Assembly: GCA_003220225.1 (NCBI GenBank)
Contig: QHRU01000072.1
Location: forward strand, 1 to 64,000
Source of the DNA: Candidatus Rokuibacteriota bacterium
Lineage (GTDB): Bacteria > Methylomirabilota > Methylomirabilia > Rokubacteriales > CSP1-6
DNA: 64,000 nucleotides
Direction: 5' to 3'
Made by a program: the position numbers and the translations under genes. The notes beneath the pieces were generated by a model. It saw only the letters and a program-made list of their open reading frames with translations. It searched no databases and was not told the DNA's origin. Positions 7,995-57,127 of this stretch are shown in pieces (the first letter of the stretch is position 1; each line of letters begins with the position of its first letter).

Positions 7995-8002
7995 CTTGTC
8001 AC

Positions 8003-8095
8003 GTGGGGGGCCCCGATATGGCCCCCCACGCCCCCCAACGCTCGGAGCGCCCCGGGGAACCCGTGGCGCTCCTCGGCCACGCGCGCGCTCATCGG
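8003..8095 (+). repeat. Dispersed structured repeat, copy A
   Basis: This 90-base segment between the CaiB-like start and the acyl-CoA dehydrogenase stop begins GTGGGGGGCCCCGATATGG and recurs at 51808-51903 (inverted) and 54857-54933. It has two hairpins: GGGGGGCC/GGCCCCCC around 8005-8027 and GGAGCGCC/GGCGCTCC around 8044-8073. The 3' part runs a few codons into the dehydrogenase gene. It sits in a transcribed gap within one operon. Confidence 0.75.
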
Positions 8096-48165: not shown

Positions 48166-48328
48166 GCGCCGCCGCAGCGCTGCGCCGCGTGTGATGGCAC
48201 GCGGTTTGGAGTATCGTTGGCGGCGGCGGATGGTCGGCTGGAGCAGTTTCTGCCGCTTCCTGCTCCTTCATGCGCGTCCGAAGCACAGCGGCGACAGGAC
48301 GCGTGACGACCCTCCGCCCTGCTGCCTC

Positions 48329-51807: not shown

Positions 51808-51903
51808 CCATCGGTGAGCGCACGCGTGACCGAGGAGCACCACGATTCATTCGGGGCGCGACGAGCGCTGGGGGATGTGGGGGGCCATGTCGGGGCCCCC
51901 CAC
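51808..51903 (-). repeat. Dispersed structured repeat, copy B (inverted)
   Basis: The minus strand of this segment reads GTGGGGGGCCCCGACATGG and continues along copy A to the end (TGCTCCTCGGTCACGCGTGC). It sits between the permease stop (51796) and the ATPase start (51915) inside one operon. The first hairpin (51879-51901) is intact; the second is degenerate. Confidence 0.75.
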
Positions 51904-51914
51904 GATGGTAGCGA

Positions 51915-52988
51915 GTGAGCAAGCTGGCGCTGCGCGAAGTCACCTGCCGCTTCGGCGCCTTCACCGCGGTGGATCGCGCGACGCTGGCGCTGGCCCGCGG
52001 CGAGTTCGTCTCGCTGCTCGGCCCCTCGGGCTGCGGCAAGACCACGACGCTGCGGATGATCGCCGGCTTCCTCGACCCCACGGAAGGCACCATCGAGCTG
52101 GACGGGCGCGCGATCTCGGCGCCCGGCCATTCGCTGCCGCCCGAGAAGCGCGGCATGTCGATGATCTTCCAGTCATACGCGATCTGGCCGAACATGACGG
52201 TGGCCGAGAACGTCGGCTTCGGCCTCGAGGTGCGCCGCCTGCCGCGCCTGGAGATCCGCGACAAGGTCGACCGCATCCTGGACGTGGTGCGCATGCGCCA
52301 CCTCCGCGACCGCTACCCGGCCGAGCTGTCGGGCGGCCAGCAGCAGCGCGTGGCGCTGGCGCGGGCCATCGTGGTGCAGCCCGACGTCCTGCTGCTCGAC
52401 GAGCCGCTCAGCAACCTCGACGCCAACCTCCGCGAGGAGATGCGCTACGAGATCCGTCGCCTGCACGACGAGTTCCACATCACGACCGTCTACGTGACCC
52501 ACGACCAGGCGGAGGCCATGGTGACCTCCGACCGCATCGCGGTGATGAACGCCGGGCGCATCGAACAGGTGGACGAGCCACGCGCGCTCTACGCGCGGCC
52601 GCGTACGCGCTTCGTCGCCGGCTTCATCGGCCGCACGAACTTCCTCGAGGCCGAGGTGCGCGGCGACGACGTCACCTTCGACGGCTTCGCGATCCCGCGC
52701 GCGCGCTTCGCGGACGGCGCCGCGCTGGGCGGCCGCCTGACGTTCTCGCTCCGGCCGCAGAGCGTCCACCTGCACCGCCAGCCGCCGCCGGCCTCCGATC
52801 GCGCGGCGCTGCTGCCGGGCCGCGTCGTGCAGCGCGCGTACCTCGGCGAGCACTGGGACTATGCGGTGCGCCCCAAGGACGGGGCGCTCCTGCTGCGCGT
52901 CACCGCGCGGCCGCACGAGGTCTTCGAAGTCGACGAGAGCGTCTGGCTGGAGCTCGACGCCCGGCAGATGGCGCCCATCGCGGACTGA
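51915..52988 (+). CDS. ABC transporter ATP-binding protein (FbpC-like)
   Basis: GTG start at 51915; 357 residues. Walker A LLGPSGCGKTTTLR, Q-loop MIFQSYAIWPNMT, signature LSGGQQQRVALARA, Walker B LLLDEPLSNLD and the switch VYVTHDQAEAM are all present. The C-terminal 120 residues are a TOBE-like domain. It drives the importer encoded by the two upstream genes, despite the 118-base gap with the repeat. The solo copy of the inverted-repeat element begins one base after the stop. Confidence 0.93.
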   Translation: MSKLALREVTCRFGAFTAVDRATLALARGEFVSLLGPSGCGKTTTLRMIAGFLDPTEGTIELDGRAISAPGHSLPPEKRGMSMIFQSYAIWPNMTVAENVGFGLEVRRLPRLEIRDKVDRILDVVRMRHLRDRYPAELSGGQQQRVALARAIVVQPDVLLLDEPLSNLDANLREEMRYEIRRLHDEFHITTVYVTHDQAEAMVTSDRIAVMNAGRIEQVDEPRALYARPRTRFVAGFIGRTNFLEAEVRGDDVTFDGFAIPRARFADGAALGGRLTFSLRPQSVHLHRQPPPASDRAALLPGRVVQRAYLGEHWDYAVRPKDGALLLRVTARPHEVFEVDESVWLELDARQMAPIAD

Positions 52989-52989
52989 C

Positions 52990-53142
52990 GTCGCGGGCGG
53001 CCGGGGTGGCGCGGCCCCGTTCGAGCACGCAAATCGACAGTACCGGGACGCCTGTCAAGGTGCCACGATTAATTGCCGGGGCCGACGCAGTACCCAGAAG
53101 ACACGGCTCTCACGGGGCCGCGCCACCCCGGCCGCCCGCGAC
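52990..53142. repeat. Solo element with perfect 30-bp inverted arms
   Basis: The left arm 52990-53019 (starts GTCGCGGGCGGCCGGGGTGG) and right arm 53113-53142 are exact reverse complements over 30 bases and enclose a 93-base core. Read on the minus strand, the core shares long blocks with the 130-bp array at 55928: TGAGAGCCGTGT, GGGTACTGCGTCGG, GACAGGCG/TACAGGCG and TCGATT. It lies directly 3' of the ABC ATPase gene and could fold in RNA or act as a mobile or structural element. Confidence 0.85.
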
Positions 53143-53219
53143 GCCAGCCGTGCCGGGTACTCTCCGGCCCTTGCGGACACCACACGCGTGGGTGATATGC
53201 TCCCGGGACGGAGGTGGTC

Positions 53220-54854
53220 ATGGTCAGTACGCGGACGCTCGCTGTTGGAACTGGAATCGTGATTCTCGGCGCCTGGCTCGGAGCCTCGACCCTGCGCGCG
53301 GGCGCGCAGGCGCCGGAGCGCCTGGGCAAGGTCAACTTCCCGACCTCGTGCAGTCCCGCCGTGCAGGCGCAGTTCGAGCGCGCCGTCGCGCTGCAGCACT
53401 CGTTCTGGTTCGCCGAGTCGATCAAGGGCTTCAACGCCGTCGCGCAGGCCGACCCGTCGTGCGGCATCGCCCACTGGGGCGCCGCCGTCGCGTTCCTCGG
53501 CAACCCGCTGGCGGGGCCGCCGGTCGCCCGCGGGCTGCAGGAAGGCACCGCGGCCGTCGCGCGCGCCAAGGCCGCCGGCGCCAAGACCCAGCGCGAGCAG
53601 GATTACATCGCGGCCATCGCGACGTTCTACACGGACGCCGACAAGGTCGATCACAAGACGCGCGCGGTCGCCTACGAGAAGGCGATGGAGGCGCTCGCGC
53701 AGAAATACCCGAGCGACCTCGAGGCGTCGATCTTCTACGCGCTCGCGCTGAACACGACGCTGAACCCGAGCGACAAGACGTACGCCAATCAGCTCAAGGC
53801 AGCCGGGATCCTCGAGAAGGTCTTCGCCGTCCAGCCCGAGCACCCGGGCGTGGCGCACTACCTGATCCACTCTTACGACTTCCCGCCCATCGCCCAGAAG
53901 GGCCTGCCCGCCGCGCGACGCTACGCGTCCATCGCGCCCTCGGCGCCGCACGCCCAGCACATGCCCTCGCACATCTTCACGCGGCTGGGCTACTGGCAGG
54001 ACTCCATCAACAGCAACCGCGTCTCGGCGGAGGTCGCCAAGGCCGAGCTGAAGCAGACCAACCTCGAGGCGGGCTCGTACAACGCGCTGCACGCGATGGA
54101 CTACATCACCTACGCCGCCCTGCAGCTCGGCCGAGACAAGGAGGCGCGCGCCGTCCTCGACGAGATCCGCGGCCTCACCAGGATCGACTCCGAGCAGTTC
54201 GCGGCCGCCTTCGCCTTCGCGGCCATCCCGGCGCGCTACGCGCTCGAGCGCCGCGCATGGACGGAGGCGGTGGACCTGCCGCTTCACCCGCAGAGCCTGT
54301 CGTGGTCGAAGTTCCCCCAGGCCGAGTCGATCAACGCATTCGCGCGCGGGCTCGGCGCCGCGCGCAGCGGCAACGTGGCGGCCGCGAAGAAGGAAGCGAC
54401 CCGGCTCGAGTCGCTCGCCTACGCGCTGACGACCGCGAAGAATGCCTACTGGGCCGAGCAGGCCGAGATCCAGAAGCTCGCGGTGAACGCGTGGATCGCG
54501 CGCGCCGAGGGCCGAAACGACGAGGCGCTGGCGTTGATACGCCAGGCCGCCGACCGCGAGGATGCGACGGAGAAGCATCCGGTCACGCCGGGGGCCATCC
54601 AGCCCGCGCGCGAGATGCTGGCCGAGCTGCTGCTCGACACCGGGCAGGCCGCGAAGGCGCTCGCGGAGTTCGAGGCCTCGCAGAAGACGGATCCCAATCG
54701 CCTGCACGGCCTGGCCGGCGCCGCGCGCGCCGCCGAGGCCTCGGGCGACAAGACCAAGGCGAAGGCGTACTACGTCAAGCTGATCGAGCTGACGAAGACG
54801 GCCGACAGCGAGCGGCCGGAGATCGCCAAGGCCAAGGCCTTCGTTAACAATTGA
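53220..54854 (+). CDS. Secreted TPR-containing protein
   Basis: The ATG at 53220 follows ACGGAGGT at good spacing; 544 residues with a signal peptide (AVGTGIVILGAWLGAST). The N-terminal part has FPTSCSPAVQAQFERAVALQ and HSFWFAESIKGFNAVAQADP, and the middle has the conserved VAHYLIHSYDFPPIAQ and HMPSHIFTRLGYWQDSI, then a TPR tail (LAELLLDTGQAAKALAEFEA). This family is widespread and uncharacterised; conserved His may bind metal or heme (inference). Confidence 0.85.
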   Translation: MVSTRTLAVGTGIVILGAWLGASTLRAGAQAPERLGKVNFPTSCSPAVQAQFERAVALQHSFWFAESIKGFNAVAQADPSCGIAHWGAAVAFLGNPLAGPPVARGLQEGTAAVARAKAAGAKTQREQDYIAAIATFYTDADKVDHKTRAVAYEKAMEALAQKYPSDLEASIFYALALNTTLNPSDKTYANQLKAAGILEKVFAVQPEHPGVAHYLIHSYDFPPIAQKGLPAARRYASIAPSAPHAQHMPSHIFTRLGYWQDSINSNRVSAEVAKAELKQTNLEAGSYNALHAMDYITYAALQLGRDKEARAVLDEIRGLTRIDSEQFAAAFAFAAIPARYALERRAWTEAVDLPLHPQSLSWSKFPQAESINAFARGLGAARSGNVAAAKKEATRLESLAYALTTAKNAYWAEQAEIQKLAVNAWIARAEGRNDEALALIRQAADREDATEKHPVTPGAIQPAREMLAELLLDTGQAAKALAEFEASQKTDPNRLHGLAGAARAAEASGDKTKAKAYYVKLIELTKTADSERPEIAKAKAFVNN

Positions 54855-54856
54855 AG

Positions 54857-54933
54857 GTGGGGGCCCCGACATGGCCCCCACACCCCCAACGCTCGGGGCG
54901 CCCCGGGAAACCCGGGGCGCCCCTCGGGAACCC
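54857..54933 (+). repeat. Dispersed structured repeat, copy C
   Basis: This copy begins 2 bases after the TPR stop with GTGGGGGCCCCGACATGG and ends just before the ATG of the dehydrogenase gene. The second hairpin reads GGGGCGCC/GGCGCCCC where copy A has GGAGCGCC/GGCGCTCC, so the A-T pair became G-C on both sides. It forms the whole leader of the next gene. Confidence 0.75.
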
Positions 54934-55899: not shown

Positions 55900-55914
55900 C
55901 GAGACGTGCGAGCC

Positions 55915-56712
55915 GCGGTGGGGTCCCGTGAGAGCCGTGTTTCGGGTACCGCGTCGGATCCGGCGACGTCAGCGGTGCCCGCTTACAGGCGCGACCCGTC
56001 GTCGATTGGCGTGGTCGAACACGGCCCCGCCGCGGGCGCGGGGCGCGGCGGGGCCGTGTGAGACCCGTGTGTCGGGTACCGCGTCGGGTCCGGCGCCGTC
56101 AGCGGTGCCCGCTTACAGGCGCGACCCGTCGTCGATTGGCGTGGTCGAACACGGCCCCGCCGCGGGCGCGGGGCGCGGCGGGGCCGTGTGAGAGCCGTGT
56201 TTCGGGTACTGCGTCGGGTCCGGCGCCGTCAGCGGTGCCCGCTTACAGGCGCGACCCGTCGTCGATTGGCGTGGTCGAACACGGCCCCGCCGCGGGCGCG
56301 GGGCGCGGCGGGGCCGTGTGAGACCCGTGTTTCGGGTACTGCGTCGGATCCGGCGACGTCAGCGGTGCCCGCTTACAGGCGCGACCCGTCGTCGATTGGC
56401 GTGGTCGAACACGGCCCCGCCGCGGGCGCGGGGCGCGGCGGGGCCGTGTGAGACCCGTGTTTCGGGTACCGCGTCGGGTCCGGCGACGTCAGCGGTGCCC
56501 GCTTACAGGCGCGACCCGTCGTCGATTGGCGTGGTCGAACACGGCCCCGCCGCGGGCGCGGGGCGCGGCGGGGCCGTGTGAGACCCGTGTTTCGGGTACT
56601 GCGTCGGGTCCGGCGCCGTCAGCGGTGCCCGCTTACAGGCGCGACCCATCGTCGATTTGCGCGGTCGAACACGGCCCCGCCGCGCCCCGCGCCCGCGGCG
56701 AGGCCCTGTTCA
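55915..56712. repeat. Tandem array of six 130-bp units, each with a hairpin
   Basis: Units begin at 55928, 56058, 56188, 56318, 56448 and 56578, each near GTGAGA(G/C)CCGTGTTTCGGG. Each has a core of about 93 bases and a 15-bp perfect stem CACGGCCCCGCCGCG/CGCGGCGGGGCCGTG around a 9-base loop. Units differ at a few sites (ACC/ACT, GATCC/GGTCC, CGACG/CGCCG). In the sixth unit the loop and following arm are inverted (GCCGCGCCCCGCGCCCGCGG). Small frames inside it are repeat-made and not counted as genes. Confidence 0.95.
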
Positions 56713-56719
56713 GCCAGCG

Positions 56720-57127
56720 TCAGGGATTCACGATGTCGACGCCGACCAGCACGACCTTGGCGCCGCCGCGGTTCTCCGCCCAGTGCTCGACGTCGCGCGA
56801 CTCGGTGATGATGCCGCCGGGGCCGAGCGTCTTGCTGTAGCCGCCCTGCCGCAGCTCGGTCAGGCTGCCCTGCAGGATGTACGCGAAGGCCGGCCGCTCC
56901 TTGTGGCTGTGGAAGCCCGCCACGCCGCCCGGCTCGAAGGTGATCGTGCGGATGCGCAGCTGGTAGCCGGGCATGTCGGGCGCGAGGTCGATCGTGCTCT
57001 CGACCTTGGCGTCGAGCCCCTTGTTGTCCATGGGCGGGCTCTGCTGTCCCACCGCAGAGCCGAGTTCGAAGCCCACGCCCAGCGCGAGCACGCCGACGAG
57101 CGCGACGATCCAGCGCGATCCGTTCAT
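56720..57127 (-). CDS. Secreted cupin-domain protein
   Basis: The 135-residue protein has an N-terminal hydrophobic anchor (WIVALVGVLALGVGFELG) and a cupin: TFEPGGVAGFHSHKERPAFA with the His pair and Glu of motif 1, and GPGGIITESRDVEHWAEN with the His of motif 2. It probably binds a metal in the periplasm; reaction unknown. It converges on the tandem array, with its stop at about 8 bases from the array end. Confidence 0.85.
   Translation of the reverse strand: MNGSRWIVALVGVLALGVGFELGSAVGQQSPPMDNKGLDAKVESTIDLAPDMPGYQLRIRTITFEPGGVAGFHSHKERPAFAYILQGSLTELRQGGYSKTLGPGGIITESRDVEHWAENRGGAKVVLVGVDIVNP

Follow-up and report, generated by a model that had tools for sequence, protein, structure and literature searches.

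The closest described systems are short intergenic repeats, folded recombination sites and structured RNAs. In repeats of the ERIC type, arms and ends are conserved between copies. ERIC, IRU and RU-1 are MITE-like repeats of about 100-200 bp, dispersed and intergenic, which form a long stem-loop as RNA, have empty sites in relatives and possibly affect neighbouring mRNA; bacterial MITEs are typically A+T-rich, with 5'TA3' ends in most families (PMC2229807). REPs are hairpins of 20-40 bp that carry the tag GTAG or CGTC and, like REPINs with their RAYT, form abundant palindromes near gene 3' ends and between convergent genes (PMC3733652). Integron attC sites keep structure over sequence and lie directly behind a stop codon, with the folded strand opposite the gene. 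Lastly, candidate structured RNAs from comparative genomics, such as a survey of 104 motifs (PMC2864571), were found by covariation, have a conserved apical domain and have no function assigned to them.

We describe here an element that shares each of these likenesses and departs from each system in other ways. Unlike ERIC, it has different arms at every site, the apical core, or head, being all that copies have in common; unlike ERICs and MITEs in general, it is G+C-rich, without TA ends (none among the arm ends listed), occupies a fixed antisense position behind stop codons and is under purifying selection in place. In contrast to REPs, it measures 130-190 bp, about 90 nt of which form a conserved head, and it has no conserved flanking tag. 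It differs from attC in having no R boxes, in conserving the head instead of the base, and in lying outside cassette arrays and away from the integrase. From candidates such as those of the 104-motif survey it is set apart by its absence from Rfam 15, by a copy number of about 50 per genome, by stems that differ from copy to copy and by presence/absence variation. Because the features that define ERICs and REPs (shared terminal repeats, tags, a dedicated transposase) and the attC boxes are missing, we file it as a candidate new family of dispersed structured RNA.

A solo element and a tandem array in one window

The window, that is, the whole 64,000-nucleotide stretch of contig QHRU01000072.1 that was analysed, holds a solo element and an array of six (Table 1). 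The first-pass annotation had described the solo copy as having perfect 30-bp arms and a core aligned opposite to that of the array, with both copies starting just after a stop codon, and all of this was confirmed. The solo element spans 52985-53147, with arms that are perfect over 32 bp on either side of a 91-nt core. Counting one outer mismatch and the G-A step, the arms extend to 42 nt with 93% complementarity (52985-53026 with 53106-53147). The tandem G-A step lies at 53110-53111, between stems P1 and P2, with the second G-A at 53021-53022, and the core follows the pattern GA.GAGC.CGTG.TCTTCTGGGTA...GTCGATTTGCGTGCTC.GA. In RNA-energy folding the element reaches -116.6 kcal/mol versus -71.8 in shuffles (z = -10.3); the opposite strand also folds far below its shuffles (z = -10.1). 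The array core (55912-56700) matches the solo core in opposite orientation (nhmmer E about 1e-20). The solo copy stands directly after the TGA at 52986-52988, and the array is bounded on one side by a TAG whose last base is 55899 and on the other by a convergent cupin gene, the stop codon of which is at 56720.

Table 1. Coordinates of the solo element, the tandem array and their adjacent genes, numbered from the first position of the window
Feature	Position	Strand	Basis
ABC transporter ATP-binding gene, stop codon abuts solo element	51915..52988	+	Pfam PF00005, PF08402 (ABC_tran)
P1 stem 3' arm, solo element	52989..53020	-	Perfect 32 bp; outer end abuts ABC ATPase TGA (52986-52988)
P2 inner helix 3' side, GCTC (most copies GGTC)	53023..53026	-	Covarying pairs
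Conserved 91-nt core (head), subtype A	53021..53111	-	nhmmer core profile and alignment A1
P2 inner helix 5' side, GAGC (most copies GACC)	53106..53109	-	Covarying pairs, alignment columns 25-28 with 111-114
P1 stem 5' arm, solo element	53112..53143	- (RNA strand = minus)	Perfect 32-bp complement of 52989-53020; helix covaries in 54 copies
Six tandem subtype-B elements, 130-bp period	55908..56690	+	TRF, covariance models
Array units	55908-56039, 56044-56164, 56174-56294, 56304-56424, 56434-56554, 56558-56690	+	Covariance-model matches
Cupin-domain gene, stop codon abuts array 3' end	56720..57127	-	Pfam PF07883 and gene call

The two loci represent two subtypes. Subtype A, that of the solo element, carries the signature GTGTCTTCTGGGTA ... 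ATCGTGGC, and subtype B, that of the array, GTGTTTCGGGTA ... ATCGGTGC; the diagnostic positions are perfectly linked across 54 aligned copies. Other tandem arrays in the genome are found at C96:96920-97592 (six units) and C124:1228-1597 (three units). In all three arrays, neighbouring units have shortened arms of 8-16 bp in common, and because of this the spacer of the window array is itself palindromic; its last unit has perfect 32-bp arms (56548-56579 / 56669-56700). Elsewhere in the window, a CyVA-1 RNA (RF02965) scores above gathering at 48231-48312 on the plus strand (45.5 bits).

Family size and distribution

Whole-genome blastn (6.03 Mb) returned dozens of matches to the element. Collecting copies genome-wide and checking the covariation of their arms, as the first-pass annotation had proposed, gave about 49 copies (nhmmer core profile plus covariance model) and showed that arms do covary across copies. 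The core match is not confined to the two copies first noticed, and neither outcome named as a refutation in the first-pass annotation occurred. Two genomes of the same genus have about 12-15 copies each. A broader model built from distant copies detected the element in 37 of the 57 genomes searched from its bacterial family, Candidatus Rokuibacteriota, and in none of 38 other genomes of the phylum. Copy numbers are patchy among genomes, and the core is present in the named Candidatus Rokuibacteriota MAGs AR29 and AR40. The elements have a G+C content of 63-81%, and the head is shorter in distant copies, at 77-80 nt. Contigs filed as 'Acidobacteria bacterium AA35' (QHVJ01; L131, L135, L150) carry copies identical to loci of this genome (L135, C96); they are probably mis-binned Rokubacterial sequence and no sign of a wider distribution. 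In Rfam 15 no family matched at its gathering score, the one match, to a microRNA hairpin, being far below gathering, which rules out a known RNA family. Searches of phage, plasmid and viral collections gave no match, and a phage or plasmid origin was rejected.

Covariation of the stems and the selected strand

The copies share a P1 stem of 30-50 bp, the tandem G-A step, P2 (made up of GACC/GGUC and CGU/GCG, one U being bulged) and the head. In an alignment of 54 copies (A1), the 32 P1/P2 pairs are formed in 93.4% of cells, and 357 cells are changed on both sides. The observed values were reached by 0 of 500 shuffles, and slid controls pair in 35-52% of cells only. An alignment of 63 sequences, mostly from other genera (A3), has 98.1% of cells paired. 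The GACC/GGTC of P2 changes in concert to GGGC/GCCC, GAGC/GCTC or GGCC/GGCC, and the P1/P2 junction, which carries tandem G-A on both sides in most copies, has Watson-Crick pairs instead in a minority. The head contains the near-invariant motifs CCGUR, [U]CUUCUGGG or UUUCAGGG, and AGCGUGGUC; about 30-40 of its positions are near-invariant and kept in orthologs. Beyond P1/P2, the only covarying pairs were the linked subtype positions 37/38 with 70/71, and we therefore claim no internal structure for the head.

Among the arm cells that are not Watson-Crick, G-T outnumbers A-C by 67 to 13 under symmetric scoring. The bias is present both within the genus (GT/TG 64 versus AC/CA 12, P = 1e-9) and in other genera (44 versus 12, P = 2e-5). 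Since G-T on one strand is A-C on the other, pairing is selected on one strand only: the minus strand for the solo copy and the plus strand for the array. It is natural to read this selected strand as RNA, while folding of single-stranded DNA could also give an excess of G-T.

Gain, loss and selection in place

Several loci that are filled in this genome (G000) have, in sister species, short or different spacers with neither core nor arms. Such empty sites were found for the array and for loci L018, L025, L011 and L004, in a comparison that covered part of the loci (without the flanks of L016, L028, L030 and L040). The array site in G001 is just TTCTGAGCCCGCTCAGGG, and the L025 site in G002 is TGACCCTCA. 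Several G000-specific copies face empty sites in both G001 and G002, and with G001 the more distant genome, these differences are most simply gains. No target-site duplication is visible at the compared sites, where the intergenic flanks are short and diverged.

Other small repeats occur in the same places. The solo site in G002 is occupied by a double-hairpin repeat unrelated to the element, in three tandem copies (L220 about 1939-2218), and other hairpins likewise occupy the element's spots in sister species. The double-hairpin repeat, the second dispersed repeat here, is 76-93 bp long, its two hairpins are G+C-rich, and in the window it is found at 51812-51904, 54848-54927 and, inverted, 8002-8094; two of these three copies are close behind stop codons. 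A third tiny repeat, the palindrome GTGCGAAGCCGCAGGCCGTTCGACGGCCGAGGCGAGCC, forms an insert of about 45 bp near the element 3' end in L062 and L052, landing inside different copies in two species.

Copies present in two species show no decay. In 11 pairs of orthologs, the family-invariant core positions differ at 9 of 463 (2%) and the variable core positions at 110 of 264 (42%). Both the pairing and the invariant head are kept by selection while the copy is present. The first-pass annotation had offered two readings of the changed but complementary arms, selection for structure or the terminal inverted repeats of a tiny mobile element. The former is strongly upheld by the covariation, seen independently in the 54 copies and the 63 mostly more distant ones, by the G-T excess and by the invariant core kept in orthologs. 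The latter gains from the empty sites, which had been suggested as a check together with target-site duplications, and loses from the unshared arms and from the absence of RAYT/Y1, the single family of enzymes linked to small palindromic repeats that was searched for; duplications would be hard to see in the short, diverged flanks, and none was visible.

In the fuller form of the mobile reading, the element would be non-autonomous DNA of the ERIC/MITE kind, a selfish palindrome with a transposase acting in trans, its arms serving as terminal inverted repeats and any RNA effect being incidental. Dispersed, multi-copy intergenic palindromes with G000-specific copies, tandem arrays and patchy copy numbers speak for it. 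We nevertheless judge it unlikely. The arms are unshared between copies even when cores are 90-95% identical, and for this reason they cannot be inverted repeats recognised by a transposase; the TA termini and A+T richness typical of bacterial MITEs (PMC2229807) are missing, and orthologous copies are under purifying selection where they stand. The Y1 transposase associated with REPs (PF01797) had no match in the element's own genome in a search that detected its controls, which rules out a RAYT/REP identity. Group II introns were also considered as mobilisers and rejected: the three reverse transcriptase loci all have a recognised group II intron domain and show no sequence link to the element.

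Separate histories of arms and cores

In the set of 33 full copies from this genome, more closely matching cores do not go with more similar arms: even where two cores are 90-95% identical, the arms differ as much as in any other pair. Similarity between copies breaks at GAGACC...GGTCGA. The arms instead follow the locus, with a similarity of 0.52 between orthologs versus 0.35 between paralogs (P = 2.5e-6; shuffled arms, 0.28). The variable core positions carry no such locus signal (0.449 against 0.455), and three loci hold subtype A in one species and subtype B in another (L003/L031, L021/L066, L023/L054). The simplest explanation would be that cores are exchanged or converted between loci while the arms stay; saturation of the variable core positions is a weaker alternative.

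These separate histories could also be read as a way of spreading, in which only the core of about 92 nt would move, reaching the tip of a palindrome by insertion or exchange, and arms of 30-50 bp would be made or remade locally, for instance by snap-back copying primed by the GACC/GGTC ends. We regard this as improbable, and we know of no class of mobile or converting element with such self-made private stems. Its simple form, insertion of the core into pre-existing long terminator hairpins, was rejected: the empty sites lack arms, and no core-less hairpin with a stem of at least 18 bp was found in the sampled genome sequence except the array spacers.

Position and orientation at gene ends

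Genes were called by a gene finder whose codon-usage model was trained on the window, and the positions of 114 deduplicated loci were compared. The gene on the element's 3' side is convergent at 95 loci (P = 2e-13) and has the same orientation as the element at the other 19. Measured from the outer end of the 3' arm, the adjacent stop codon mostly lies between -10 and +30 nt. On the 5' side the orientation of the gene is not fixed (62 to 47), and both neighbours are antisense to the element in nearly half of loci, so that transcription in the element's sense would need an antisense promoter. Where convergent genes meet, two elements may stand back to back, one per stop codon (L011). Base composition is flat, with no U-tract or AT-rich stretch on either flank of the arms. 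Since the 5' arm is not preceded by an AT-rich stretch resembling a promoter, nor the element followed by a U-tract, it is no obvious sRNA gene of its own and no intrinsic terminator. Two group II introns with a reverse transcriptase (L245 1303-1380, L247 1354-1428) end near the stop codon of a convergent gene, both sharing the element's antisense post-stop position.

Directly behind the stop codon is also where the adjacent gene would be expected to have a 3' hairpin of its own, read in the gene's sense and acting as a terminator or as a stabiliser of the mRNA. The long G+C-rich stem can form from either strand, REPs are placed likewise (PMC3733652), and the hairpins at the same spots in sister species would fit. 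The wobble bias, though, is on the opposite strand, neither side offers a U-tract, and a conserved, strand-specific head is unnecessary for a terminator, which makes this reading a rather poor prospect.

The same topology recalls attC, with variable sequence, conserved structure and a folded strand opposite the gene behind whose stop codon it lies. As an attC-like recombination site of single-stranded DNA, the element would offer its folded bottom strand to a recombinase; DNA tolerates G-T mismatches well, and the genome has a bona fide integron integrase (G000:C156:1603-2547, L264; 457 bits to TIGR02249), with fragments on C13 and C122. Against this, RYYYAAC/GTTRRRY boxes occur in 0 of 117 element sequences, no element lies on the three stretches of contig that carry the integrase or fragments of it, the copies are scattered among ordinary genes and not cassettes, and the conserved part is the head, not the stem base. 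The integrase's 8.2-kb contig has no recognisable attC pattern. An identity with integron attC was rejected on the missing boxes and the lack of elements near the integrase, and an attC-like site seems to us very unlikely. Equally doubtful is a trans-acting small RNA or catalytic RNA in many copies, with the head as active or protein-binding site, the stem as scaffold and the gene end as a safe landing place: the near-invariant head positions and the tandem arrays, as in processed RNA arrays, speak for it, but there is no promoter-like composition and no Rfam match, and so strict a post-stop position is unexpected for an RNA acting in trans.

Discussion

Structure, selected strand, position, turnover and selection in place are shown by the results above. 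Our best explanation of them, which we hold tentatively, is that the element belongs to a new, lineage-restricted family of dispersed structured RNA, probably a cis-acting insulator of gene 3' ends against antisense transcription. Transcripts that reach a gene from its 3' side, by convergent read-through or as antisense, would form the hairpin just before entering the gene; the head might then recruit a putative host factor, and the stem would stop or process the incoming transcript. The 3' end of the gene would thereby be insulated. Several results speak against this reading: the 19 loci whose downstream gene runs in the element's own direction, the loci where both neighbours are antisense to it, the missing promoter-like region and U-tract, and a G-T excess that folded single-stranded DNA could also give. 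Gene conversion would homogenise the cores and be limited to them because the arms are not homologous.

Small dispersed palindromes that lie behind genes tend to be classed as selfish DNA or as terminators, and selection on their structure can rarely be separated from mere copying. Here the two are cleanly separated by about 50 copies per genome that combine private, covarying stems with a conserved head. The family also gives empty and filled orthologous sites to compare, and a folded strand that is antisense to the adjacent gene. If the insulator reading is true, this uncultured soil lineage would have an RNA device dedicated to shielding its genes from antisense transcription; if the exchange of cores is true, it would represent a new way for a repeat to spread.
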